A stretch of DNA of 64,000 nt from a virus: positions 35,377 to 99,376 of the IMG/VR virus record IMGVR_UViG_3300025929_000015, one strand, 5' to 3'. The notes beneath the pieces are model-generated. The model made no database searches. It had not been told where the DNA came from and saw nothing but the letters and a program-made list of their open reading frames with translations. The position numbers were made by a program, and so were the translations under genes. Of the stretch, positions 3,605 to 64,000 are shown piece by piece (position 1 is the first letter of the stretch; each line of letters begins with the position of its first letter).

Positions 3605-4879
3605 ATGACCAAGTTCCGCGCCGCGGCGATCATCGCGGCGATCACGCTGCTCGCGCCGGCCGGCGCGGCGGCCATAACGGGCCCCGCCCTGGCGGGCGCC
3701 CCGTACTCGTGCGACACCACGTCCCTGTCCGGGTCGTGCGGACCCTACACGTCCAACCCGGCCGTCCAGCTGGGCACCGCCGAGACGGCTAACGTCGTGC
3801 AGGACGCCTGGAACGCCGGGTACTCCGGCGGCACGATCAACAGCCAGGAGCTGCTGGCCAACAGCACTTCGGACTGGCAGATCAAGGCGAACGTGACTGG
3901 CGACGGGGCCGTCATGACCGGGCCGGAGGCCCAGGTCACCCCGGAGAACTGGACCGGTACCACTAACCTGCCGGTGCCGGTCGCGGACTACAGCTCCATC
4001 GCCAGCAGCTGGGACATCTCGATGCCCAGCCCGGGCGCGAGCGACGACTACGAGGCCGCCTACGACATCTGGCTGGCCGATGCTACCCAGCGGCAGTGGA
4101 CCAATGACCAGGAGATCATGGTCTGGACGGACAACCACGGCCAGCAGCCGGCCGGCACCGACACCGGGAAGACCTGGACGGATGCCTCCACCGGCGCCGT
4201 CTACGAGATCTGGGTCCGCACCGGCACGTCCACGCTCGGACCTGATTCCACCGTGTCGTTCGCGGCGAAGGCCAACAGCGTCACCGGCAGTGTGGACCTG
4301 CTCGCCCTGTTCAGGTTCCTGCAGGCCAACGGCTACTCCACCGGGTCCGTGGGCATCGACCAGGTCAACTTCGGTTTCGAGCTGTGCAACACCAGCGGGC
4401 AGGCCGAGGACTTCACGGTCAATAACTTCACGCTCACCGCGGCCGGTGACGGGCTGAACGGCGCCCCGGGCGGCGGCACCGGCGGAGGTGGCGGAGGTGG
4501 CGGCGGAGGCGGCGGCTCTGCGCAGGCCCCGGTGGTCACCACGGGCGCTGCCAGCGGGGTGACCAGCTCGGCGGCGACGCTGGCCGGGTCGGTCAACCCG
4601 GAGGGCGCGGATACGTCCTACCGGTTCGACTACGGGACCACCAGCTCCTACGGCAGCTCCACCGCAGCCGTCGATGCGGGCAGCGGCACCGCCGCGGTGG
4701 CGGTGTCCGCGAAACTGGCCGGACTGCTCCCGTCCGCCACCTACCACTACCGGCTGGAGGCCACCAGCGCGAACGGGACCAGCGACGGCGCGGACCGGGT
4801 GTTCACCACGGCCCGCAAGCACCGGCACGCGGCCCGGGCCCGGGTGCGCCCGGCGGGTCCGCCGTGGTTCCGCTGGTAA
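3605..4879 (+). CDS. Secreted GH12-type endoglucanase with Gly linker and Fn3-like domain
   Basis: 424 aa, ATG at 3605 after a GAAAGG site. A signal peptide (about 1-31) precedes a GH12 fold: nucleophile-type Glu170 in EIMVW and acid/base-type Glu259 in NFGFELCN, the two signatures of family 12 endoglucanases and xyloglucanases. A glycine run (about 288-302) links to a fibronectin-III-like domain. Secreted cellulases are common in actinomycetes but unexpected in a phage block; it may be cargo or help the particle through host polysaccharide. Confidence 0.84.
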   Translation: MTKFRAAAIIAAITLLAPAGAAAITGPALAGAPYSCDTTSLSGSCGPYTSNPAVQLGTAETANVVQDAWNAGYSGGTINSQELLANSTSDWQIKANVTGDGAVMTGPEAQVTPENWTGTTNLPVPVADYSSIASSWDISMPSPGASDDYEAAYDIWLADATQRQWTNDQEIMVWTDNHGQQPAGTDTGKTWTDASTGAVYEIWVRTGTSTLGPDSTVSFAAKANSVTGSVDLLALFRFLQANGYSTGSVGIDQVNFGFELCNTSGQAEDFTVNNFTLTAAGDGLNGAPGGGTGGGGGGGGGGGGSAQAPVVTTGAASGVTSSAATLAGSVNPEGADTSYRFDYGTTSSYGSSTAAVDAGSGTAAVAVSAKLAGLLPSATYHYRLEATSANGTSDGADRVFTTARKHRHAARARVRPAGPPWFRW

Positions 4880-5048: not shown

Positions 5049-5222
5049 TCACCGACGGGGCGGGCGGGCTTTCTCCTGGAACTCGACCCGGTCGACGCGA
5101 CGCTGGGGGGCGGGCGACAGCCAGGTCTGCATCGCCACTTCCAGGTCGACCCACTCGCCCTTGACCCCGTCGTCGTAGACGAACCGGACCTCGATCCGGC
5201 TGGCGGGCAGGCTCATGGCCAT
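5049..5222 (-). CDS. Small protein downstream of GH5
   Basis: 57 aa. The ATG at 5222 overlaps the TGA of the GH5 gene (ATGA), so it is co-translated with it. There is a short beta-rich N-terminus (RIEVRFVYDD), a Trp-containing centre and a basic tail. I do not recognise a family. Confidence 0.7.
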   Translation of the reverse strand: MAMSLPASRIEVRFVYDDGVKGEWVDLEVAMQTWLSPAPQRRVDRVEFQEKARPPRR

Positions 5223-6334
5223 CAGATGATGTCCTGGAGCAGCGCGATCATCTCGGCGTTGGTGCCTTTCCAGTCCTGGCCGCACATCAGCCCGAATCCT
5301 TCCCGGTTCCCGTCCGGGGCCTTGAGCACGCCGGTGCCGGGCTCGGTGCCGCGGACCGTCTGGGCGGACAGCGACCACCAGCACCAGCTGACCCCGCGGG
5401 CGCCGGCCCAGGCCAGGAAGTTCGCCATCCAGCCGCTGGTCATCGCCGCGCGGCTGGCCAGGTCCTGGCCGAACTCCCCGACCCAGACCGGCGCGGTCCC
5501 GGACAGCCGCAGGTAGCCGCCCTGGCGGTCCATCTGGTCGAAGTAGGCGGACGTCGCCTGCCCGCCCGGGTGGAACCAGGAGTAGTCGTGCAGGGACGCG
5601 ACCACCCCGGGACCGGTGACCGGGTGCGCGGCCCAGCCGGTCAGGTCGGTGGCGTAGGACAGGCCCTCGCAGAACACCAGGCAGCCGGGGGCGGTGAACC
5701 GGATCCGGTCGGCGGTGGCCTGGTACATCCGCCGGAAGTCGGTGGCGGGGTTGCCGTCTCCCCAGGTCGGGTGCACGGTGACCCCGCCGATCACCGCGCT
5801 GCGCGGCTCGTTGCGCAGGTCGTAGCCGACCCGCGGGTTGGCGCCGAACGCGGCGGCGACCGTGTCCCAGCAGGCGGTGAACACCGCGGCGGGCCAGTTG
5901 TCGTTATGCCACAAGCCGTTGACGTCGGCGTCGCTGCAGCACCAGCCCGGGTAGGACAGGTGGTTGTTGACGATGACGTACAGCCCGGCGGCGGTCATGT
6001 CGGCGACCAGCGCCTGCATCAGCTGCCACGGGGTCAGCCCGGCCAGGTCGGGGTTGGCCGCGACGCGGGCCAGCGGGACCGGGCTGGTGAACGGGGTGCC
6101 GTCGCGGTTGAGCAGGGTGCCGGTGGCGAACGGGAACCGGACGTGATTCATCCCCCAGCTCACGATCCGGCCGATGATCTCACTGCGCGGCAGCTTGTCC
6201 AGGCCCGCGGCGACACGGTTGTCCTGGTGCGCGCCGGGCCAGTTCACTCCGCACAGCCGGTACGGCTGCCCGTCGGCGCCGGTGATGGCGGCGCCGGAGA
6301 CGGCCAGCGGGAACGCGCTCGCGGGGATGATCAT
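5222..6334 (-). CDS. GH5-type endoglucanase (cellulase fold)
   Basis: 370 aa from the ATG at 6334, chosen because GGAGGAGTC precedes it. The TIM-barrel signatures of GH5 are present: VNWPG near the start, the acid/base Glu176 in DLRNEP, His/Tyr in LHDYSW and the nucleophile Glu287 in WVGEFG. No signal peptide is visible, unlike the GH12 protein, so release would need lysis or another route. It ends in an ATGA overlap with a 57-aa gene. This is the second of three glucanase families in the window. Confidence 0.87.
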   Translation of the reverse strand: MIIPASAFPLAVSGAAITGADGQPYRLCGVNWPGAHQDNRVAAGLDKLPRSEIIGRIVSWGMNHVRFPFATGTLLNRDGTPFTSPVPLARVAANPDLAGLTPWQLMQALVADMTAAGLYVIVNNHLSYPGWCCSDADVNGLWHNDNWPAAVFTACWDTVAAAFGANPRVGYDLRNEPRSAVIGGVTVHPTWGDGNPATDFRRMYQATADRIRFTAPGCLVFCEGLSYATDLTGWAAHPVTGPGVVASLHDYSWFHPGGQATSAYFDQMDRQGGYLRLSGTAPVWVGEFGQDLASRAAMTSGWMANFLAWAGARGVSWCWWSLSAQTVRGTEPGTGVLKAPDGNREGFGLMCGQDWKGTNAEMIALLQDII

Positions 6335-19455: not shown

Positions 19456-19722
19456 ATGCCCGCGCCCGCCCCGGAAGTAGTGCTGGCCCGCTGCGCGGTC
19501 TGCCGGTTCCGGATGGACCCGGTGCTGCCGCTGCACGGGTACCGCACCCACCCGTGCTGCCAGCCCGGCGAGGTATCCCCGCGCTGGGAACCCGGCGACA
19601 CCCCGCTGCGCGGGCCCAAGAGGAAAACGGCCCACCGGGCCCAAAGAGCCAACGGCCCGCCGCCCACAACGGGTACGGAACCAGCCAGGGTGATAACGGC
19701 GGCGGGTACAGTAGCGGGATGA
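19456..19722 (+). CDS. Small Cys-containing protein
   Basis: 88 aa. CAVCRFRMD and HPCCQPGE make a likely zinc site in the first 40 residues; the tail is basic and Pro/Thr-rich. Its TGA overlaps the ATG of a 19-aa ORF. Confidence 0.62.
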   Translation: MPAPAPEVVLARCAVCRFRMDPVLPLHGYRTHPCCQPGEVSPRWEPGDTPLRGPKRKTAHRAQRANGPPPTTGTEPARVITAAGTVAG

Positions 19723-19778
19723 CAGGCAGCCCCGGCCCAGGGACCAACCCCACAAAGATGACGGCCGGGGCTGCCTGA
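19719..19778 (+). CDS. 19-aa coupled mini-ORF covering a hairpin
   Basis: It starts in an ATGA overlap with the preceding gene and ends in a TGATG overlap with the next. Its DNA contains a perfect 13-bp inverted repeat (19725-19737 / 19763-19775). The peptide is Gly/Pro/Thr-rich. The arrangement suggests a leader that controls translation of the 19778 gene; this is inference. Confidence 0.5.
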   Translation: MTGSPGPGTNPTKMTAGAA

Positions 19779-20896
19779 TGCGTGACCTGGCGGAGGCGTG
19801 CGAGGAGCTGCTCACCCAGCTCCAGGTGTTCGACCTCGGCGCGGCTGACGACGACCGGGCCGACGCGGGCCTGGTCACGGTAACGTGCCTGATCGCCGAG
19901 GCGGACACCGACCCGGGGCTGCGCCGCTCCGGGCTGCTGGAATCCCGTCCGCCGTGGAACGCCAACGTGGCCGGCGCCTACCTGTCCGCCCACCAGCTGG
20001 TGCGCCGCCTGGAGGCGTCGCTGCGGCTGGCGGTGGCCGGGCACCCGGGCCGGGCGCGCGGCGGGTCGGATGCGAATACCGCCGAGGCCATCCGGGCGAT
20101 CGCCCGGATGGCCACCGCGGCCAGCGTGATCCCCACCGCCGAGCCGGTCTCCCGGTCCGACCCGGACGGGCGCAAGCTGACCGTGGCGGAACTGGCCGCG
20201 ATCGTGCTGGACCGCGCGATCCGCGTCATCGGCCAGCTGCCCGCCATCGACGAGTTCCCCAAGTGGGAGAAGATCCGGGCCGGCCCGGACGGGCTGCCGC
20301 CGCGCTGCCCGAACTGCGGTACGTTCTCGCTGCGGGTCGCGGTGCAGTCCGGGGTGGTGGTGTGCGTGCTGCCGTCCTGCGCCGACCTGGACGGGAACAG
20401 TCCCCCGCAGGCGCACCTGGACGTCTCGCGGCTGGACGGCAGCCCGGCGCTGGTGTGGCGGGACGGCACCGTGCAGTGCCCGCCGGCCGCGTTACGGCAG
20501 GTCCCGGAGCGGGATCCAGCCGTCTGGGTAGTCACCCCGGCTGATGGCCTGGGCCAGGCAGATGGCCGCGAACGGCCTGTACCCGCGCGCCCGGCCCGTG
20601 ACTACCGCCAGGGCCTCGTCCGGATCTTCGTCCAGTTCCAGGAGAGGGTCTTTCATGAGTTCTCGAATTCGATGTCGTCGATCATGTTCTGCCTTTCCCT
20701 TTCGTCACGGATTACCTCCCCAGAGTTTCCTGCTGAGCACAGGAACGCATTCCTTGCAGACCTGGAACTGGCACCACCATTTCAATTTCTTCCCGCAGTT
20801 CAGGCATCGCCCGGTCATTTCCTGCGCCGCCGTGCGGCGATACCCCTGGCGATCATCCGTAGCTTCTCCTCGAAGCAGGGTGTACACAGGCCATGA
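19778..20896 (+). CDS. Hypothetical protein with zinc ribbon; 3' end doubtful
   Basis: Residues 1-240 look like a real protein: helical N-terminus (ACEELLTQLQVFDL), a middle helical pair (EAIRAIARMATAASV, VAELAAIVLDRAIRVIGQLP) and a zinc ribbon (CPNCGTFSLRV...VCVLPSC). From about 20490 the frame runs ~400 nt over minus-strand genes with poor coding bias, so the true stop is probably lost or shifted near 20490-20545. Confidence 0.6.
   Translation: MRDLAEACEELLTQLQVFDLGAADDDRADAGLVTVTCLIAEADTDPGLRRSGLLESRPPWNANVAGAYLSAHQLVRRLEASLRLAVAGHPGRARGGSDANTAEAIRAIARMATAASVIPTAEPVSRSDPDGRKLTVAELAAIVLDRAIRVIGQLPAIDEFPKWEKIRAGPDGLPPRCPNCGTFSLRVAVQSGVVVCVLPSCADLDGNSPPQAHLDVSRLDGSPALVWRDGTVQCPPAALRQVPERDPAVWVVTPADGLGQADGRERPVPARPARDYRQGLVRIFVQFQERVFHEFSNSMSSIMFCLSLSSRITSPEFPAEHRNAFLADLELAPPFQFLPAVQASPGHFLRRRAAIPLAIIRSFSSKQGVHRP
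20492..20656 (-). CDS. 54-aa acidic hypothetical protein
   Basis: The frame starts MKDPLLELDEDPDEAL and ends IPLRDLP, with normal coding bias. It begins in an ATGA overlap with a 10-codon ORF that has its own GGGAAAGG site (20655-20687). It overlaps the doubtful 3' end of the plus-strand gene. Confidence 0.62.
   Translation of the reverse strand: MKDPLLELDEDPDEALAVVTGRARGYRPFAAICLAQAISRGDYPDGWIPLRDLP
20705..20818 (-). CDS. 37-aa zinc-ribbon mini-protein
   Basis: CLNCGKKLKWWCQFQVCKEC is almost the whole protein: two CxxC pairs around a Trp pair. Start overlaps the previous stop (ATGA). One of several zinc-knuckle mini-proteins here. Confidence 0.65.
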   Translation of the reverse strand: MTGRCLNCGKKLKWWCQFQVCKECVPVLSRKLWGGNP

Positions 20897-23951: not shown

Positions 23952-24021
23952 CCTGCTTGCTTCCTGGCAAGCAGAACAACGCCCGGACCCCAGGGGTCCG
24001 GGCGTGTTCCTCCTGGCAGGA
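23952..24021 (-). repeat. Structured intercistronic element, copy 1
   Basis: Shared flanks (CTGGCAAGCAGA and CCTGGCAGGA on the plus strand) enclose a 12-bp stem (23980-23991 / 23993-24004). It lies between the GH16 stop and the next gene. One of seven copies with identical flanks and different stems. Confidence 0.8.
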
Positions 24022-24023
24022 TG

Positions 24024-25130
24024 CTACGGCTGGGTGTAGCTGAACGCAGGCAGCGGCACGGCCACTGCCGGGTCCCCGGGCGGTGGCGCCCCGTTGGGGC
24101 ACCACAGGTTGACGATCACCTGCTGCTTGCCGGTGGCGGGGACGGCGACCGTGCCGCTGAACTGGTTCCCGCCGTACAGCTGGGTGTAGCTGTACTTCTG
24201 CCCCTGGACGGCGGTCACCTCGGCCAGCACGGTCCCGTCCGCGGCGGACAGCCGCCATCGCAGGGAGCCGGGCAGCCAGGTGAACTCGGCGGTCAGGCTG
24301 CCATGCCCCGCCGGGATGGCGAACTGGCTGCCCGGTACCAGCACGTGCCCGGGCGGGGTGCCCTGCACCGAGCTGAGCTGGTCGGCGTAGTAGCCGAACT
24401 GGACGAACGCCGGGGCGCCGGCGATAGTCCCGGCCGAGTAGAACTCGATGTCGATTTCCTTCTGCCCGCCGGGGCCGCCCTTGCTGGCTGCCCAGTAGGT
24501 GAACAGTCCCAGGCACAGCCCGGGCGGCAGTGCGGTCAGGTCGGCGCCGATGCTCCACCGGTAGGTGCCGTACCCCCAGGTCGAGGCGTTCGCCGCGATC
24601 CCCTGGTCACCCCGGGCGGAGTCCGCCTCCGCCCCGGCATACAAGCCGGGTGACAGCTGCGCGGCGTGCAGCGTCAGGACCTGACCCAGCGCGTCCACGG
24701 TCACGTTGGCCGCCTTAGGCTGGCCGGGCGCGGTGCCCCAGTCCTCCAGCTCCCACAGGTGATTGCCCCAGGACACCGCGTTCCCCGCCTGGGAGGCAGG
24801 CGGCTCGGCCCCGCCGTAGCCGGAGACGATGGCCTTGCCGGCTGACGGGGCGGCCCCGGCCAGCAGCGCGGTGCCGTTGGCGTTGGACTGCAGCGCGTAC
24901 GACCCGCCCTGGTCATCGGTCAGCGCCACCACCGCGGCCGGGGTCCCGGACGGGGTCACCGTGTAGCTGGTGGTCGCGGTGGCGATCTCCCCGGTCGCCG
25001 GGTCCTGCGCGGTCCCGGTCAGGTTGACAGTGAACACCGCCGCCCGGTCCGCGTAGTTCGCCGTCACCTTCACCGCCTCCCCCGGGGCGTAATTCGTCTT
25101 GTCGGTGGACAGGGACAGGCTCAGGGTCAT
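24024..25130 (-). CDS. GH16-type beta-glucanase
   Basis: 368 aa from ATG 25130. Residues 1-75 form a beta-sandwich-like N-terminal domain without signal peptide. From about 115 the sequence follows GH16: WGTYRWSIG-like strand, LFTYWAASKG, and the catalytic EIDIEF (Glu225, Asp227, Glu229). GH16 enzymes cut beta-1,3/1,4-glucans or galactans. It is the last gene of an operon with a glycan synthase and a small membrane protein, which suggests control or trimming of the product. Confidence 0.86.
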   Translation of the reverse strand: MTLSLSLSTDKTNYAPGEAVKVTANYADRAAVFTVNLTGTAQDPATGEIATATTSYTVTPSGTPAAVVALTDDQGGSYALQSNANGTALLAGAAPSAGKAIVSGYGGAEPPASQAGNAVSWGNHLWELEDWGTAPGQPKAANVTVDALGQVLTLHAAQLSPGLYAGAEADSARGDQGIAANASTWGYGTYRWSIGADLTALPPGLCLGLFTYWAASKGGPGGQKEIDIEFYSAGTIAGAPAFVQFGYYADQLSSVQGTPPGHVLVPGSQFAIPAGHGSLTAEFTWLPGSLRWRLSAADGTVLAEVTAVQGQKYSYTQLYGGNQFSGTVAVPATGKQQVIVNLWCPNGAPPPGDPAVAVPLPAFSYTQP

Positions 25131-25273
25131 GGTCGACGCCTCCTTCGCGGGGTCAGCCGGACCCGGGGCCGCAGCCGGGTGGCCGCAAGTACCGCGTAGA
25201 CCAGGGTCACCCCGCTGATCACGTACGTGCCCAGGAAATGGTACATGGGCATGTACCAGCCGTAATTCTGCAT
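25127..25273 (-). CDS. 48-aa single-span membrane protein
   Basis: Short aromatic N-terminus (MQNYGWYMPMY), one hydrophobic span (about 12-30), then an Arg-rich tail. GAGGGGG lies before the ATG; its TGA overlaps the GH16 ATG. Position between a membrane synthase and a hydrolase suggests an accessory subunit of the synthase. Confidence 0.75.
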   Translation of the reverse strand: MQNYGWYMPMYHFLGTYVISGVTLVYAVLAATRLRPRVRLTPRRRRRP

Positions 25274-25290
25274 GATATTTCCCCCTCGGG

Positions 25291-26409
25291 TCAGATGGAC
25301 GTACCGGCACCCCAGCTGGAGCTGCGCTTGCGCAGCATCCGGTACAGCGCGCGGATGTAAACGAACTGGCGGGCGACCGAGTAGAACAGGTCGGGGACGA
25401 TCAGCAGCGTCGCCACGATGGCGACGATCCCGGCCTTGCGCGCCTGCCAGGTCTGCTCGATGATGATGAACAGCAGGCACAGCGCGTACAGCTTCGCGTT
25501 CAGCGGGTTGATGCCCTGCCAGCCGAACAGCGCGAACGACCAGGACAGGTAGAACGCGGTCAGCGGCAGCGCCAGCATCCCCAGGTAGGTGGCGGACTGC
25601 CGGACGATCATCCCGCGCGTCTCGTGCCCCCACCCGTACCGGACCAGCTCGGCCAGCGTGCCGTGCTGCCAGCGCAGCCGCTGGCTCACCCAGTCCCGGA
25701 CGGTCTCCATCACGTCGGTCAGCACCCGGCAATTCCCCGGCGCCAGCACCGGGATCCGCAGCCGTTTCAGCGCCAAGGTCAGCTCGTAGTCCTCGACCAG
25801 GCTGTGCACGTCGTACACCTGGCCGTCCGGGCGGGTCGCGGCCACCGCCCACAGCACGCACACCCGCATCCCCCACCCGGTGCCGGACAGCACGTCGGCC
25901 CGCGGGCGGCGGTTCTGGTGCTGGGCGAACCGGGCGAACTCGGCCCGCTGCAGCGCGCCGAGCAGGCCGCCGCCGGGGCGGCCGTGGAACGTCGCGCCGA
26001 CGCTGCCGTAGCCTTTCTCCAGCCACCGGATCGTGTTGGCGATGAAGTCGGGGTCCGGCACGGAGTCCGCGTCGAACCCCATCACGATGTCGGTGTCATC
26101 CAGCCGGGGCAAGATGTGCGCCAGCCCGATGTTCAGGTTGCCGGCCTTGCGGTGCGGGTTGACCGCCGTCTGGGTGATGCTCACCCCGTACGGCGCGACC
26201 TCGGCTGCGATCCGGTTGGCCAGCTCGCGGTCGGCTGTGTTGTCGAGCAGGACATACAGCTCGTCCGGGGGCCTGGTCTGGCCGAGCACCGCCTCCACGG
26301 TCCGGCTGATCGTCCCGGTCTCGTTGTGGGTGGGGATCACGACGACCACCCGGTCGGCCGGGTCGGTCAGCAGCGGACCGAAATCCCTTCCTCGTCTTGA
26401 ATGGTTCAA
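25291..26409 (-). CDS. Processive GT2 glycan synthase (cellulose/chitin-synthase-like)
   Basis: 372 aa, TTG start at 26409 with AAGGAG 6 nt before it. The GT-A domain has the four hallmark motifs of processive beta-glycan synthases: Asp56 (LLDNT), DAD at 113-115, ED at 206-207 and QRLRW at 243-247. Three hydrophobic spans follow (about 272-298, 305-320, 327-350). It should polymerise a UDP-sugar into a beta-glycan at the membrane. First gene of a three-gene operon ending in GH16. Confidence 0.88.
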   Translation of the reverse strand: MNHSRRGRDFGPLLTDPADRVVVVIPTHNETGTISRTVEAVLGQTRPPDELYVLLDNTADRELANRIAAEVAPYGVSITQTAVNPHRKAGNLNIGLAHILPRLDDTDIVMGFDADSVPDPDFIANTIRWLEKGYGSVGATFHGRPGGGLLGALQRAEFARFAQHQNRRPRADVLSGTGWGMRVCVLWAVAATRPDGQVYDVHSLVEDYELTLALKRLRIPVLAPGNCRVLTDVMETVRDWVSQRLRWQHGTLAELVRYGWGHETRGMIVRQSATYLGMLALPLTAFYLSWSFALFGWQGINPLNAKLYALCLLFIIIEQTWQARKAGIVAIVATLLIVPDLFYSVARQFVYIRALYRMLRKRSSSWGAGTSI

Positions 26410-27661: not shown

Positions 27662-28111
27662 TCACAGCGGGATGTGGCCTTTCGGCCAGCCATCCTCGCG
27701 GATTTTCCCGTCCGCCAGCATGGCCAGGTGCTCCAGTGTGCCCGGTTCGTACCGGCGGACCGGCGCGGTGGTCCGGGCGATCTGCCGGGCCACCCGCCGG
27801 GCGAACCGGGCCTTGCGCCAGGCCGCCCGGGCGGCGGCGGTCTTGACCCGTCCGGTCAGCGGCGTGTAGACGTAGGCGTCTTCGATGTGCACCCCGGACA
27901 CGGTGCCGTCCCCGTCGAACCAGACCTCGCCGGTCAGCTCGTGCCGGGCGACCGTCAGCGCGGACAGGTCCACCTTGCACTGCCCGTCCGGCCAGAAGTC
28001 GACGTCGGTGCCGTCGGCCAGGTGCACGGTGAGCCGCACGGCCGGCCGGCGTCTCATGGCCGGCTCAGCTGTCTGCCGCAGCGGCAGCAGCATCCATCTC
28101 GGTCCGGTCAT
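27662..28111 (-). CDS. Hypothetical basic protein
   Basis: 149 aa, ATGA overlap with the S24/S26-like gene. Beta-rich first 85 residues (VRLTVHLADGTDVDFWPDGQ), then an Arg-rich helix and a C-terminal ~40 residues. Possibly a partner of the S24/S26-like protein by coupling. Confidence 0.7.
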   Translation of the reverse strand: MTGPRWMLLPLRQTAEPAMRRRPAVRLTVHLADGTDVDFWPDGQCKVDLSALTVARHELTGEVWFDGDGTVSGVHIEDAYVYTPLTGRVKTAAARAAWRKARFARRVARQIARTTAPVRRYEPGTLEHLAMLADGKIREDGWPKGHIPL

Positions 28112-28404
28112 CGCACTGCCCGGCCGGCGATCCGGTCCCGGCTGGTCCAGCCGTTGACGTGCCCGTGGTTGTTGGAGATCTGCACCCGCTGCCCGTCGAT
28201 CGCGGTGATCTTATGCAGGTAGATGCGGCCGCGGACGCGGGCCAGCACGATGTCCCCGGCTTCGAGCGTGTCATCGTCGCGCAGCCGCCGGATGGTCACC
28301 CGCTCCCGGTCGCAGATCAGCGGTTCCATGGAGTGGCCGCGCGGCCGGATCGTGACCTGCTCCGCACCGTCACGGAGCTGGTGATAAGCCCAGGTCTCGG
28401 TCAC
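28108..28404 (-). CDS. S24/S26 peptidase-like protein
   Basis: 98 aa. PRGHSMEPLICDRERVTI holds the Ser of the S24/S26 fold and GRIYLHKITAI the candidate catalytic Lys; the rest matches the compact beta barrel (AGDIVLARV, HGHVNGW). There is no DNA-binding or membrane part. It may be a trans-acting self-cleavage or signal-type peptidase. It lies right after a multi-HTH regulator. Confidence 0.75.
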   Translation of the reverse strand: MTETWAYHQLRDGAEQVTIRPRGHSMEPLICDRERVTIRRLRDDDTLEAGDIVLARVRGRIYLHKITAIDGQRVQISNNHGHVNGWTSRDRIAGRAVR

Positions 28405-61925: not shown

Positions 61926-62068
61926 CGGAAACCATCTCCTCTCGGGTCATCATTTAGCGCACACCAGCAGGGACACCCGGTGAGCGCGCACGAACGGCAC
62001 TCGGGACAGTGCGCGTCACGGCCACCGCCGCAGTTGCGGCAGTGGCCGGTGCTCAGGTTCATGGACAT
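61922..62068 (-). CDS. 48-aa zinc mini-protein
   Basis: From ATG 62068. CRNCGGGRDAHCPECRSC then CPCWCALN: two compact Cys clusters. Last clear member of the zinc-mini-protein series. Confidence 0.64.
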   Translation of the reverse strand: MSMNLSTGHCRNCGGGRDAHCPECRSCALTGCPCWCALNDDPRGDGFR

Positions 62069-62140
62069 GCCAGGATGGCGGACACGCGACGACGCGATAC
62101 GCGCAGCGCGATGTCCCCGCACGGCCGGACAGACACGACG

Positions 62141-62233
62141 TCACACATCGGACCCGGACCCGGTCCCTGTGTACGCATACCCGCGACGGTGGATCAATTC
62201 CGCCGTAATCAGTGCCAGCGCACGACGCGTCAT
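62141..62233 (-). CDS. Possible 30-aa peptide
   Basis: MTRRALALITAELIHRRGYAYTG reads like a small amphipathic peptide, but no ribosome site precedes it. Otherwise 62069-62598 holds no gene: it has a GTGATTCC/GGAATCAC repeat (62239-62258), GGCCAGC repeats and two terminators. Confidence 0.25.
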   Translation of the reverse strand: MTRRALALITAELIHRRGYAYTGTGSGSDV

Positions 62234-62355
62234 GCGACGTGATTCCGCACGGAATCACAATCCAGCGTGCGAGCTAGCTCGCCATACCGTGACACTAGCT
62301 GACCAACTGACATATCAGGGAACATCGGAACACACCTCCATCGGGAATGTGGAAC

Positions 62356-62470
62356 GCTGGCCACATGCCAGCGAACGGGAATCACGCGCTGGCCAGGATT
62401 GGCCAGCGTTTCGGATCACGCCATATCGCGCTTGCACGCTGGCCAGGATCAAACGGCAACGCTGGCCAGC
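62356..62470. repeat. GCTGGCCAGC-type repeat cluster
   Basis: At least four copies or half-copies of GCTGGCCA(GC) in both orientations between 62356 and 62470; further copies lie inside the two terminators that follow. No coding bias. Confidence 0.6.
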
Positions 62471-62491
62471 GTGCGAACGGGACATGCGAAA

Positions 62492-62529
62492 AATCCCCGT
62501 CCCTGGCCAGCGTGCCAGGGACGGGGATT
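62492..62529 (-). terminator. Intrinsic terminator, minus orientation
   Basis: 16-bp perfect stem (62492-62507 / 62514-62529) with a T-run following it on the minus strand (AAAAA on plus before 62493). Confidence 0.8.
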
Positions 62530-62536
62530 CCGCGAC

Positions 62537-62590
62537 GCAAAGCATCCCCCATCACTGTCCAGTGCTGGCCAGCGATGGGGGATGCTTTGC
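62537..62590 (-). terminator. 16-bp perfect hairpin after the 62599 gene
   Basis: Arms 62537-62552 and 62575-62590, first of two tandem terminators behind the 132-aa gene. Confidence 0.7.
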
Positions 62591-62598
62591 CGTAGGGA

Positions 62599-62997
62599 CT
62601 ACGCCACGGGGAGCGTAGGTGTCATGTTGGCGATGATTCCGCCGATTACTTCAAAGTCACGTGCTGTGGTGATGTTCGCACCCTTGGCAGCCGTGTCAGC
62701 TAGGCCGACCATTTGCAGGATGGCGGCGCGGAATTTCGCGTCGTCATCAGCGAACGCTGCGTCGGCTGACACCATGTACTTGACCATGGTGGCCACGAAC
62801 TGATGAGGCGCGTTTGGCTTCTCACCATGAAGGAGCTTGTCGGCCGCGCGCTGGCGTGCAGCCTCTTCCCTCTTGGCCTTCTTGGCAGCCTCGACGATCG
62901 CTGTCGCTTGTGCGAGCATCTCCTCGTCATTCATGTTGCCGTTCAGCGTAACGGTACCGTTGTTGTCGTTTTCCTTGACGTTGGCGTCTGTCGCCAT
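62599..62997 (-). CDS. Hypothetical helical protein under apparent repression control
   Basis: 132 aa from ATG 62997. N-terminal Asn/Asp/Thr-rich segment, then an Ala/Lys helix (ATAIVEAAKKAKREEAARQR) and a C-terminal domain (VKYMVSADAAFADDDAKFRAAILQM). Two terminators follow and two inverted repeats precede it, the profile of an individually expressed, abundant gene. Confidence 0.78.
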   Translation of the reverse strand: MATDANVKENDNNGTVTLNGNMNDEEMLAQATAIVEAAKKAKREEAARQRAADKLLHGEKPNAPHQFVATMVKYMVSADAAFADDDAKFRAAILQMVGLADTAAKGANITTARDFEVIGGIIANMTPTLPVA

Positions 62998-63027
62998 GAT
63001 GATCACTCCGTTTGATCGGATTCGTTC

Positions 63028-63081
63028 GTTGGCAGTTGCCAACGTGGGGAATCACGTAACAGGTACGTGACGTGAATCCCC
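63028..63081 (-). promoter_or_regulatory. Two inverted repeats upstream of the 62599 gene
   Basis: GTTGGCA/TGCCAAC (63028-63043) and a 12-nt pair GGGGAATCACGT/ACGTGAATCCCC (63046-63057 / 63070-63081, one mismatch). Operator or leader-hairpin candidates for the gene starting at 62997. Confidence 0.5.
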
Positions 63082-63120
63082 ATGTCGGAAGCTACTAGGC
63101 GGAAAGGTGAGTGTGAGCAA

Positions 63121-63330
63121 TCATGACCACTTCACCCAATCTGGGAAATCGATGTGGACGGCTGGTGATGGCACGCTACGGTGGATCATCGGTCGCTTGC
63201 TGCCAGCAAGCGCGTCATGTGGCCCAACGTTGCGCATCACGCTACGGGGTTGGTCGTGCTCATCTAGATCGACGTAGACGGATGGGCGGACACCTTCCCG
63301 TATACCCTTTTCGGCATACAACGCGCCCAT
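63121..63330 (-). CDS. Hypothetical protein (overlapping)
   Basis: 69 aa. VYVDLDEHDQPRSVMRN then HIDFPDWVKW. Its first ~22 codons overlap the gene ending at 63264; no ribosome site is obvious. Lower third-position bias than genes further left. Confidence 0.5.
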   Translation of the reverse strand: MGALYAEKGIREGVRPSVYVDLDEHDQPRSVMRNVGPHDALAGSKRPMIHRSVPSPAVHIDFPDWVKWS

Positions 63331-63611
63331 TGCCGTGACTGATGGGTGCTAAACGGACGTTGTTCGATCATCCGCGCCCATGCCTGCCATGAGAAGAAAG
63401 CATGTTCCTCTGCGCGCCACACACGGTAGGGACGGTAACACCTGTGCGTCTGATGTGGGGTTGGCTTGTCTCCGAACCGTGCCACTACGTCGACGCATCC
63501 GCACGGGGTTGGAACCTTGTCCCTGGCCACCAGACGCGCTAGCGCGTCCGATATGCCGTATGCCTCTGTGTCGACGTCGCGCTCCACGCGCGTGTCGTCT
63601 GATGTGTCCAC
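63264..63611 (-). CDS. Hypothetical protein
   Basis: 115 aa from GTG 63611 with GGGAGGTGGAAA upstream. VERDVDTEAYGISDALARLVA, then CGCVDVVARFG and Trp/His/Arg-rich end. C-terminal part overlaps the next gene. Confidence 0.55.
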   Translation of the reverse strand: MDTSDDTRVERDVDTEAYGISDALARLVARDKVPTPCGCVDVVARFGDKPTPHQTHRCYRPYRVWRAEEHAFFSWQAWARMIEQRPFSTHQSRQWARCMPKRVYGKVSAHPSTSI

Positions 63612-63696
63612 TTTCCACCTCCCGTTTCGCTCTCTGAACTACTCCAATCGTATCATGCCGTCCGTTGCCGTCCGTTTTGGCTGGTCACAGAGGTGC

Positions 63697-63807
63697 CTAC
63701 TCGTTAGGTCGGCTAACGATACAACGCTCTGACCAGGCACTATGCCTATTCATCCGAGCAGCGCTAGACAATGGTGACACAGTGACGCATGTGAGAGTGA
63801 CAACCAT
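63697..63807 (-). CDS. Possible 36-aa peptide
   Basis: MVVTLTCVTVSPLSSAARMNR with AAAGGTGAG before ATG 63807. A second short ORF starts at 63830 with GGAGGTGAGAC. Weak coding signal; given as a candidate only. Confidence 0.3.
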   Translation of the reverse strand: MVVTLTCVTVSPLSSAARMNRHSAWSERCIVSRPNE

Positions 63808-63883
63808 CTCACCTTTGGGCCACACATGTCTCACCTCCAGGCCAGGCACATGCACGACAGTTGCCGACCCTGGCAGACACTGA

Positions 63884-63950
63884 CCATGGTGCTAGGCCCC
63901 TCCACCATCCGTGCCCATGGTCAACCACAGCCATGGTCACTCAACCATGG
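63884..63950. repeat. CCATGG repeat cluster at the right end
   Basis: CCATGG occurs at 63884, 63915, 63931 and 63945; three copies are extended to CCATGGTCR. 63808-64000 has no supported gene. Could be a binding-site cluster at the edge of the next region. Confidence 0.5.
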
Positions 63951-64000
63951 TCGACCACTAGGTGACGCTCCGTCACCAGCTGGCGAGGCCGGCCGTCACA

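Follow-up and report, generated by a model that had tools for sequence, protein, structure and literature searches.

A phage-borne operon for a putative processive GT2 glycan synthase, a 48-residue membrane partner and a lichenase-like GH16 hydrolase

Why would a phage carry, in one row on one strand, a gene for a membrane glycan synthase and a gene for an enzyme that may cut glycans? The question is raised by three minus-strand genes at positions 24024-26409 of a 64,000-nt stretch of viral DNA (the window), which comprises bases 35377-99376 of the 99,376-base IMG/VR virus record IMGVR_UViG_3300025929_000015; the remaining 35 kb of the record were also analysed. In gene order they encode a family 2 glycosyltransferase (GT2), a 48-aa membrane microprotein and a GH16 hydrolase. 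We propose, with a probability of about one half, that they form a phage-borne, synthase-dependent glycan-export operon whose product coats the infected cell, the GH16 enzyme cutting the coat at lysis. In its sequence and structure model the GT2 shows the catalytic motifs and the fold seen in processive membrane synthases, and the microprotein belongs to a family that accompanies GT2s. A first-pass annotation made from the letters had described a complete GT2, a 48-aa membrane protein and a GH16 gene, linked on one strand in phage-like surroundings, and each of these points held up in the analyses described here.

The GT2 gene (25291-26409, minus strand) encodes 372 aa if a TTG start is assumed; the gene caller instead prefers GTG at 26349, giving 352 aa. 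D, DxD, ED and QxxRW are the hallmark of processive GT2 synthases, and here they stand at D56, D113-A-D115, E206-D207 and Q243-R-L-R-W247 (QRLRW, 25669-25683, minus strand). In an alignment of the query with 39 relatives hand-picked from 97 loci, D113, D115, E206, D207, Q243, R244 and W247 are invariant and D56 is kept in at least 90% of the 40 sequences. The protein matches Pfam PF13641 (E 2.7e-19), a PHROG phage glycosyltransferase family (2.6e-12) and, weakly, a GtrB-like O-antigen conversion family (1.5e-4). Three hydrophobic segments lie at the C-terminus (276-294, 299-317 and 320-338) and another within the GT domain (173-191); neither sequence nor model has an N-terminal transmembrane span. 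An AlphaFold2 model from the 40 aligned sequences reached a predicted local distance difference test score (pLDDT) of 91.5 and a predicted template modelling score (pTM) of 0.89. Foldseek ranked Chlorella virus hyaluronan synthase first (E 1.8e-13) and PcManGT, a mannosyltransferase that is not known to be a polymer synthase, second. Among the families compared on a DALI scale, the Chlorella virus enzyme scored highest at Z 26.7 (3.2 A over 325 residues), followed by Xenopus HAS1 (25.1), E. coli BcsA (24.9), PcManGT (23.4) and Chs1 (23.2). The last four all fall at Z 23-25, and the substrate is therefore not readable from the fold. The GT-A motifs and a predicted membrane-integrated fold like that of solved synthases agree with the processive GT2 synthase class. 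Class I hyaluronan synthases have an N-terminal transmembrane pair ahead of the GT domain, and the synthase of chlorovirus PBCV-1 likewise has N-terminal spans, whereas the query has none; identification as a hyaluronan synthase was rejected on the absence of these spans and of a detected UDP-glucose dehydrogenase.

The microprotein gene (25127-25273, minus strand), supported as an open reading frame (ORF) and by a hidden Markov model (HMM), encodes 48 aa with one span at residues 13-31. A short ORF usually lies directly behind related GT2s and encodes mostly 45-100 aa, with one span and then a basic stretch. Under a strict test (start at -30 to +120, ribosome-binding-like site, 30-110 aa, hydrophobic span), such a partner follows 62 of the 89 related GT2s and just 17 of the 698 other genes at these loci; the test covered 89 of 97 loci, eight being dropped for a weak match, a missing stop or fewer than 350 bases downstream, and many of the 27 GT2s without a strict partner have one under looser criteria. 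An HMM of 60 related microproteins, built with the query and its relatives on two virus contigs (L015 and L016, described below) excluded, gave the query 20.0 bits, against 6.4 for the best of 200 shuffles and 3.3 for the best other small ORF of the record. This enrichment and the HMM score make it very likely that the 48-aa ORF is a genuine gene and that its product partners the GT2.

Some members of this family carry a further motif. Of 63 non-redundant partners, 21 have L[AP]xTG, usually ahead of the span (in 1000 shuffles the mean was 0.65 and the maximum 5), and LAxTG is present in the partners of all six isolated phages that were translated (L004, L005, L006, L008, L009 and L010). Those six proteins, of about 50 aa, are hardly more than LAxTG, a span and a basic tail, and resemble a sortase signal without a passenger. 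The query's 48 aa contain no LAxTG, and with it lack the class E sortase substrate pattern of LAxTG before a span and a basic tail. Sortase genes adjoin some bacterial GT2s (Actinomadura L034, Nocardioides L109). On L029 a 55-aa ORF with LPVTG and a span (5593-5760, plus strand) stands before rather than behind a very distant GT2 relative. A small protein, RmpD, is described as changing a bacterium's surface polysaccharide phenotype (PMC7512549).

The third gene (24024-25130, minus strand) encodes 368 aa, with an N-terminal part (1 to about 104) separate from the GH16 domain and the catalytic ExDxE as E225-I-D-I-E229 (EIDIE, 24444-24458, minus strand); an upstream in-frame GTG would give 428 aa, and no signal peptide was seen by eye. 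Pfam, PHROGs, NCBIfam and a single-sequence PDB search missed the assignment, the protein as query found no match among phage records, and IMG/VR scans with the single GH16 or the single GT2 protein gave none that was confirmed. A two-member profile of the query and its L015 counterpart recovered only the L015 contig in IMG/VR and, by hmmsearch, nothing in the PDB; hhalign of this profile against bulged GH16s was suggestive (probability 31%, motif unaligned, score 33.7 versus a maximum of 19.9 over 20 column shuffles). A search of 394 genomes of the class of a Streptomyces genome found five with distant, partial GH16 matches, and five proteins from four of those loci were joined to the query and the L015 protein in a seven-member alignment (L131 was omitted for a doubtful ORF call). 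By eye, the five genome proteins start like signal peptides. YGxY, ExDxE, FxWxP and further W positions are kept in the query and L015, ExDxE being invariant in all seven. In the PDB the seven-member profile found lichenases, 12 distinct sequences at E 5e-7 to 0.002 whose catalytic motif aligned with its own, and the next match, an unrelated one, stood at 0.16; compared singly with lichenase, the query scored 96 against 75 for the best of 500 shuffles. PF00722 has no match in the query and matches one of the seven members at E 0.054. Profile similarity and the catalytic motif confirm the predicted product as a lichenase-type GH16 enzyme. With the Bacillus 1,3-1,4-beta-glucanase (lichenase, GH16) it shares the aligned catalytic ExDxE and flanking strands, and it differs in its distance (below Pfam detection), the extra N-terminal part and the lack of a visible signal peptide. 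Two adjacent, diverged GH16-like copies with NEIDxE and a signal-like start on L129 (255-1929, minus strand) possibly represent an unnamed GH16 subfamily.

The three genes are tightly arranged. Seventeen nucleotides separate the GT2 stop from the start of the 48-aa ORF, and the GH16 gene overlaps that ORF by four bases (ATGA). All three are preceded by a purine-rich, ribosome-binding-like sequence: AAAGGAG for the GT2, GAGGGGG for the microprotein and AAGGAGG for the GH16 gene. Eighteen nucleotides past the GH16 stop lies an intrinsic-terminator-like hairpin (23979-24005, minus strand) of 12 pairs, 10 of them G-C, with a fold energy z of -5.3 against shuffles (0 of 200 as good); the region holds two terminator-like sites where shuffles predict 0.8. 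No sigma-70-type promoter was found in the operon region, and the organism may use other types. The hydrolase gene apparently belongs to the same transcription unit as the GT2. A plasmid search with the operon DNA gave no match.

Gene calling on the whole record yielded 155 ORFs, and the surroundings are those of a phage. The left arm (plus strand) is structural, with a head-tail adaptor (phrog_442, E 5.7e-27), a 2058-aa protein that bears NlpC/P60 and lysozyme-like domains and resembles minor tail proteins, and a 1563-aa member of phrog_5313, a family without an assigned function. The right arm, mostly on the minus strand, carries a primase, an exonuclease, ParB and many small genes. An ordinary host chromosome was rejected as the source on the strength of the phage structural genes. 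The phrog_5313 protein matches 32 Streptomyces phage records and one Thermobifida phage record, over at most 38% of its length among the matches listed, which suggests a soil actinomycete akin to Streptomyces as the probable host. Searches of the record for TerL, integrase and resolvase found none of them; the record is therefore considered incomplete, and a lytic lifestyle is possible. In hallmark searches of 10 records, phrog_2 was present in four (this one not among them) and phrog_442 in four (this one included), and PF03354 was found in none of nine.

A profile scan with seven GT2s detected 17 virus contigs and at least 207 relatives in bacterial genomes, of which the best 80 were kept; the latter lie on genome contigs, where mobile elements may be present (L033, for one, is next to recombinase-like genes). 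These best 80 of at least 207 are almost all actinobacterial by record title and at most 42% identical to the query, the nearest relatives of which (58-62%) are other virus contigs; no identical operon was found as a chromosomal locus. The GT2 with a small membrane protein is common in actinobacterial genomes, and the pair is therefore a module shared with bacteria. A tree of 59 rows, built by a quick method (the query, the 39 aligned loci, five isolated phages, Javan622 and 13 more loci) and containing very long rows (L029, Javan622 and L071), groups the query with L015 and L016 in a virus-only clade (Shimodaira-Hasegawa-like approximate likelihood ratio test, SH-aLRT, 100) and eight other virus rows in a second (99), and nests the Microbacterium phages among genome contigs. 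Six changes between virus and genome states occur on this tree, at least four of them forced by starred branches, which makes repeated transfer of the module between bacteria and phages probable.

What fills the third slot varies. Contig L015 (39 kb) repeats the three genes in identical order (GT2 58%, GH16 domain 45%, a different GH16 N-terminal part) and no match to the phrog_2 or phrog_442 hallmark families. Three larger contigs, each with terminase and head-tail adaptor matches, differ: the third gene of L016 (130 kb) encodes a beta-helix protein with no Pfam match of its own and 33% identity (E 2e-34) to a PF12708 protein of L033; that of L021 (122 kb) encodes a GH26 protein (3.3e-8) that begins like a signal peptide, and a polysaccharide deacetylase gene (NodB, 7e-36) comes next; and on L023 (95 kb) a GH16 gene (1.7e-16) is the second after the GT2, behind which no microprotein was found. 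The first gene after the L023 GT2 looks by eye like a polysaccharide deacetylase, has no Pfam match and was not counted. Glycan enzymes thus stand behind the GT2 in four of the 14 virus contigs read, and L020 has a UDP-glucose dehydrogenase-like gene beside it. Among 736 neighbour genes, all eight GH16 matches (six on genome contigs, two on virus contigs; three from Microbacterium) lie at most two genes from the GT2, a zone holding 222 of the 736; five of the eight were in the HMM training set, and position-blind clustering recovered seven of the eight. Apart from the query, the only virus contig found with a GH16 of this type is L015. The first-pass description of an operon that "ends in its own glucanase" consequently applies to these two and does not extend to the module in general. 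The phage studied here also shares g91 with L016, and g100 and g101, just upstream of the GT2, with L021. The order on L021 (7256-9075), GT2 and microprotein followed by GH26 and deacetylase, recalls operons for deacetylated exopolysaccharides.

GT2 homologues occur in 27 phage records (26-36% identity in the 20 listed). The 11 examined comprise nine actinophages, Moorella phage MCACPph1 and Streptococcus satellite phage Javan622; the last two have a GT2 relative and lack the annotated pair. All nine actinophages (Merry, Count, SilentRX, Cantare, RobsFeet, Sparcetus, Tyrumbra, AWGoat and Ajin), from Microbacterium, Arthrobacter and Brevibacterium hosts, have a coding sequence of 50-54 aa behind a homologous GT2, as here, the two being annotated "glycosyltransferase" and "hypothetical" or "membrane protein"; the six partners that were translated each have one span. 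They differ from the query in having no hydrolase annotated next to the pair, in the LAxTG of those six microproteins and in a UDP-glucose dehydrogenase about 2 kb further on in Merry, RobsFeet (PF00984, E 3.9e-15) and Tyrumbra. The search of phages and actinomycetes that the first-pass annotation had suggested as a check thus traced the GT2-microprotein pair in both and left the GH16 protein, searched alone, unmatched in phage records. Microbacterium phage papers mention the cluster EC glycosyltransferase and UDP-glucose dehydrogenase in passing in the sections available (PMC7302621, PMC12614000).

Synthase, partner and hydrolase together are an arrangement known from bacterial cellulose systems, the pairing of synthase and hydrolase having been noted at first pass. 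The PBCV-1 synthase is not known to share its unit with a microprotein partner or a hydrolase. The nearest described systems are chlorovirus hyaluronan synthesis (PMC5408694) and the csl and bcs operons (PMC11022532). PBCV-1, which makes hyaluronan on infected cells, offers a virus-encoded membrane GT2 of the same fold (A098R, with UDP-GlcDH and GFAT) and a surface polysaccharide on the infected cell; it differs in being a eukaryotic algal virus whose hyaluronan genes, in the sections available, do not form an operon (PMC5408694). Streptomyces cslA-glxA-cslZ and Gram-negative bcsA-bcsB-bcsZ share the order synthase, membrane partner, glucanase (PMC11022532), whereas the present partner is a 48-aa single-span protein and not GlxA or BcsB, the GT2 is without PilZ in a Pfam scan, the hydrolase is a GH16 without a visible signal peptide and the operon is phage-borne. 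Membership among cellulose operons was rejected for want of PilZ, BcsB and GlxA; the query operon may work like a bcs operon without being one. In the literature searched, which included few subscription journals, neither a phage polysaccharide synthase nor the GT2-microprotein pair is described, and no phage system of this composition, in agreement with the first-pass statement.

Other glycan enzymes are encoded by the same phage. A GH5 cellulase-family gene (window 5222-6334, minus strand; Pfam E 5.8e-33), with no signal peptide seen by eye, matches 34 phage records, of which the 12 listed are Klebsiella and Erwinia phages at 22-29% identity. A GH12-like endoglucanase gene with a signal-like start (window 3605-4879, plus strand) matches PDB 1nlr (E 1e-5) and not Pfam GH12; the left arm holds what may be a distant paralogue, with a putative Ig domain (L002 4710-6218, plus strand; 26.6% over 128 aa, E 7e-4). 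Also in the left arm, L002 10174-12642 (plus strand) encodes an 822-aa apiosidase-like protein (PF13204, 1.8e-11) with a collagen-binding-like C-terminus. Two methyltransferases (L002 1-3200, plus strand, and the region of record 19611-20441) and proteins that look by eye like glycosyltransferases, two of which were scanned with Pfam and gave no match, make virion glycosylation possible. A 98-aa S24/S26 peptidase-like protein (window 28108-28404, minus strand; PF00717, 1.3e-7) is perhaps a mini signal peptidase. G+C content is 0.598 at window 62001-64000 and between 0.655 and 0.721 in the other 2-kb steps.

How might the three products act together? During infection the GT2, aided by the microprotein, would polymerise a beta-linked glycan from a host nucleotide sugar, and the glycan would pass out through the host membrane and coat the infected cell, where it could block superinfection or hold cells together. 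Because no signal peptide is visible, the GH16 enzyme would be retained in the cytoplasm and kept from the polymer until lysins of the phage breach the cell; it would then cut the coat and free the progeny, a make-then-break system. A hydrolase without a signal, made together with the synthase, would be awkward for action outside during synthesis and would be sensible if the membrane separates the two until lysis. For a particle that carries the glycan, the other option raised at first pass, no evidence was seen. Unlikely as a complete scheme, though worth stating, is a timed make-and-break capsule in which each infected actinobacterium receives a phage-made coat with its dissolving enzyme held behind the membrane until lysis, the microprotein is a new synthase subunit, and LAxTG relatives may anchor the polymer to the wall via sortase.

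Several observations weigh against this proposal. The missing signal peptide is the sole ground for timing the GH16 enzyme to lysis. Its L015 counterpart, compared singly with lichenase, scores 51, below the best shuffle at 64, and the GH16 structure model is unusable (pLDDT 41), its weak fold matches being set aside. With three C-terminal segments and no N-terminal pair, channel formation by the GT2 alone is in doubt; PcManGT scores close to the synthases, and fold likeness is no proof of processivity. No UDP-glucose dehydrogenase relative is found among the called ORFs of the record. Ten of the 14 virus contigs have no hydrolase by the GT2 as judged by eye (L022 and L024 end within 1 kb), nor is one annotated behind the pair in the nine actinophages; because of these absences the hydrolase appears dispensable to the module. 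For PBCV-1, plaque size and number were unchanged by hyaluronidase or free hyaluronan, and its authors, in the sections available, consider superinfection exclusion an unlikely reason (PMC5408694).

The GT2 might instead attach a single sugar, or a few, to a lipid carrier, a wall polymer or the microprotein, so that an altered host surface blocks adsorption of other phages, with the GH16 enzyme a separate depolymerase. The PcManGT fold match (Z 23.4), the PHROG phage glycosyltransferase match (2.6e-12) with the weak GtrB-like one (1.5e-4), and isolated phages that have GT2 and partner without an annotated hydrolase fit this view, which we nevertheless find doubtful: ED and QxxRW are conserved in the 40 aligned sequences, hyaluronan synthases and BcsA score above PcManGT, and hydrolases and deacetylases recur beside the GT2. 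Quite possible, if short of probable, is that the GH16 enzyme is a virion or lysis-time depolymerase against a host polymer such as hyphal-tip beta-glucan and sits with the GT2 only as part of a glycan-handling gene set. The GH5 (5222-6334), GH12-like (3605-4879) and apiosidase-like genes of the same phage and the separate N-terminal part of the GH16 protein are in keeping with such a role, as is the case of Erwinia phage S6, for which cellulose is a required first receptor and whose GH5 enzyme breaks down carboxymethylcellulose (PMC9544554). The gene nevertheless lies in the right-arm block directly behind the synthase pair, away from the tail genes, and the same gene order recurs in L015. 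This role is compatible with glycan export by the GT2, the likelihoods given here not being exclusive, and the GH16 enzyme may serve both ends. That the genes are a transient passenger, bacterial exopolysaccharide genes acquired without benefit to the phage, is very improbable; the fragment is metagenomic and GT2 with partner is common in bacterial genomes, yet the virus-only clades of three (SH-aLRT 100) and eight contigs (99), the four or more virus/genome switches, and intact reading frames and motifs speak against it.

The findings also suggest that actinobacteria have a glycan module built of GT2 and microprotein, in some cases with LAxTG, sortase, GH16 or GH26 close by, of which no description was found in the literature searched. 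Viral polysaccharide synthases are known from chloroviruses, and their purpose there is described as still open (PMC5408694). Actinophages that can be cultivated and that encode this enzyme class, along with a conserved microprotein and, in some of them, differing hydrolases, would make that purpose testable in laboratory strains.

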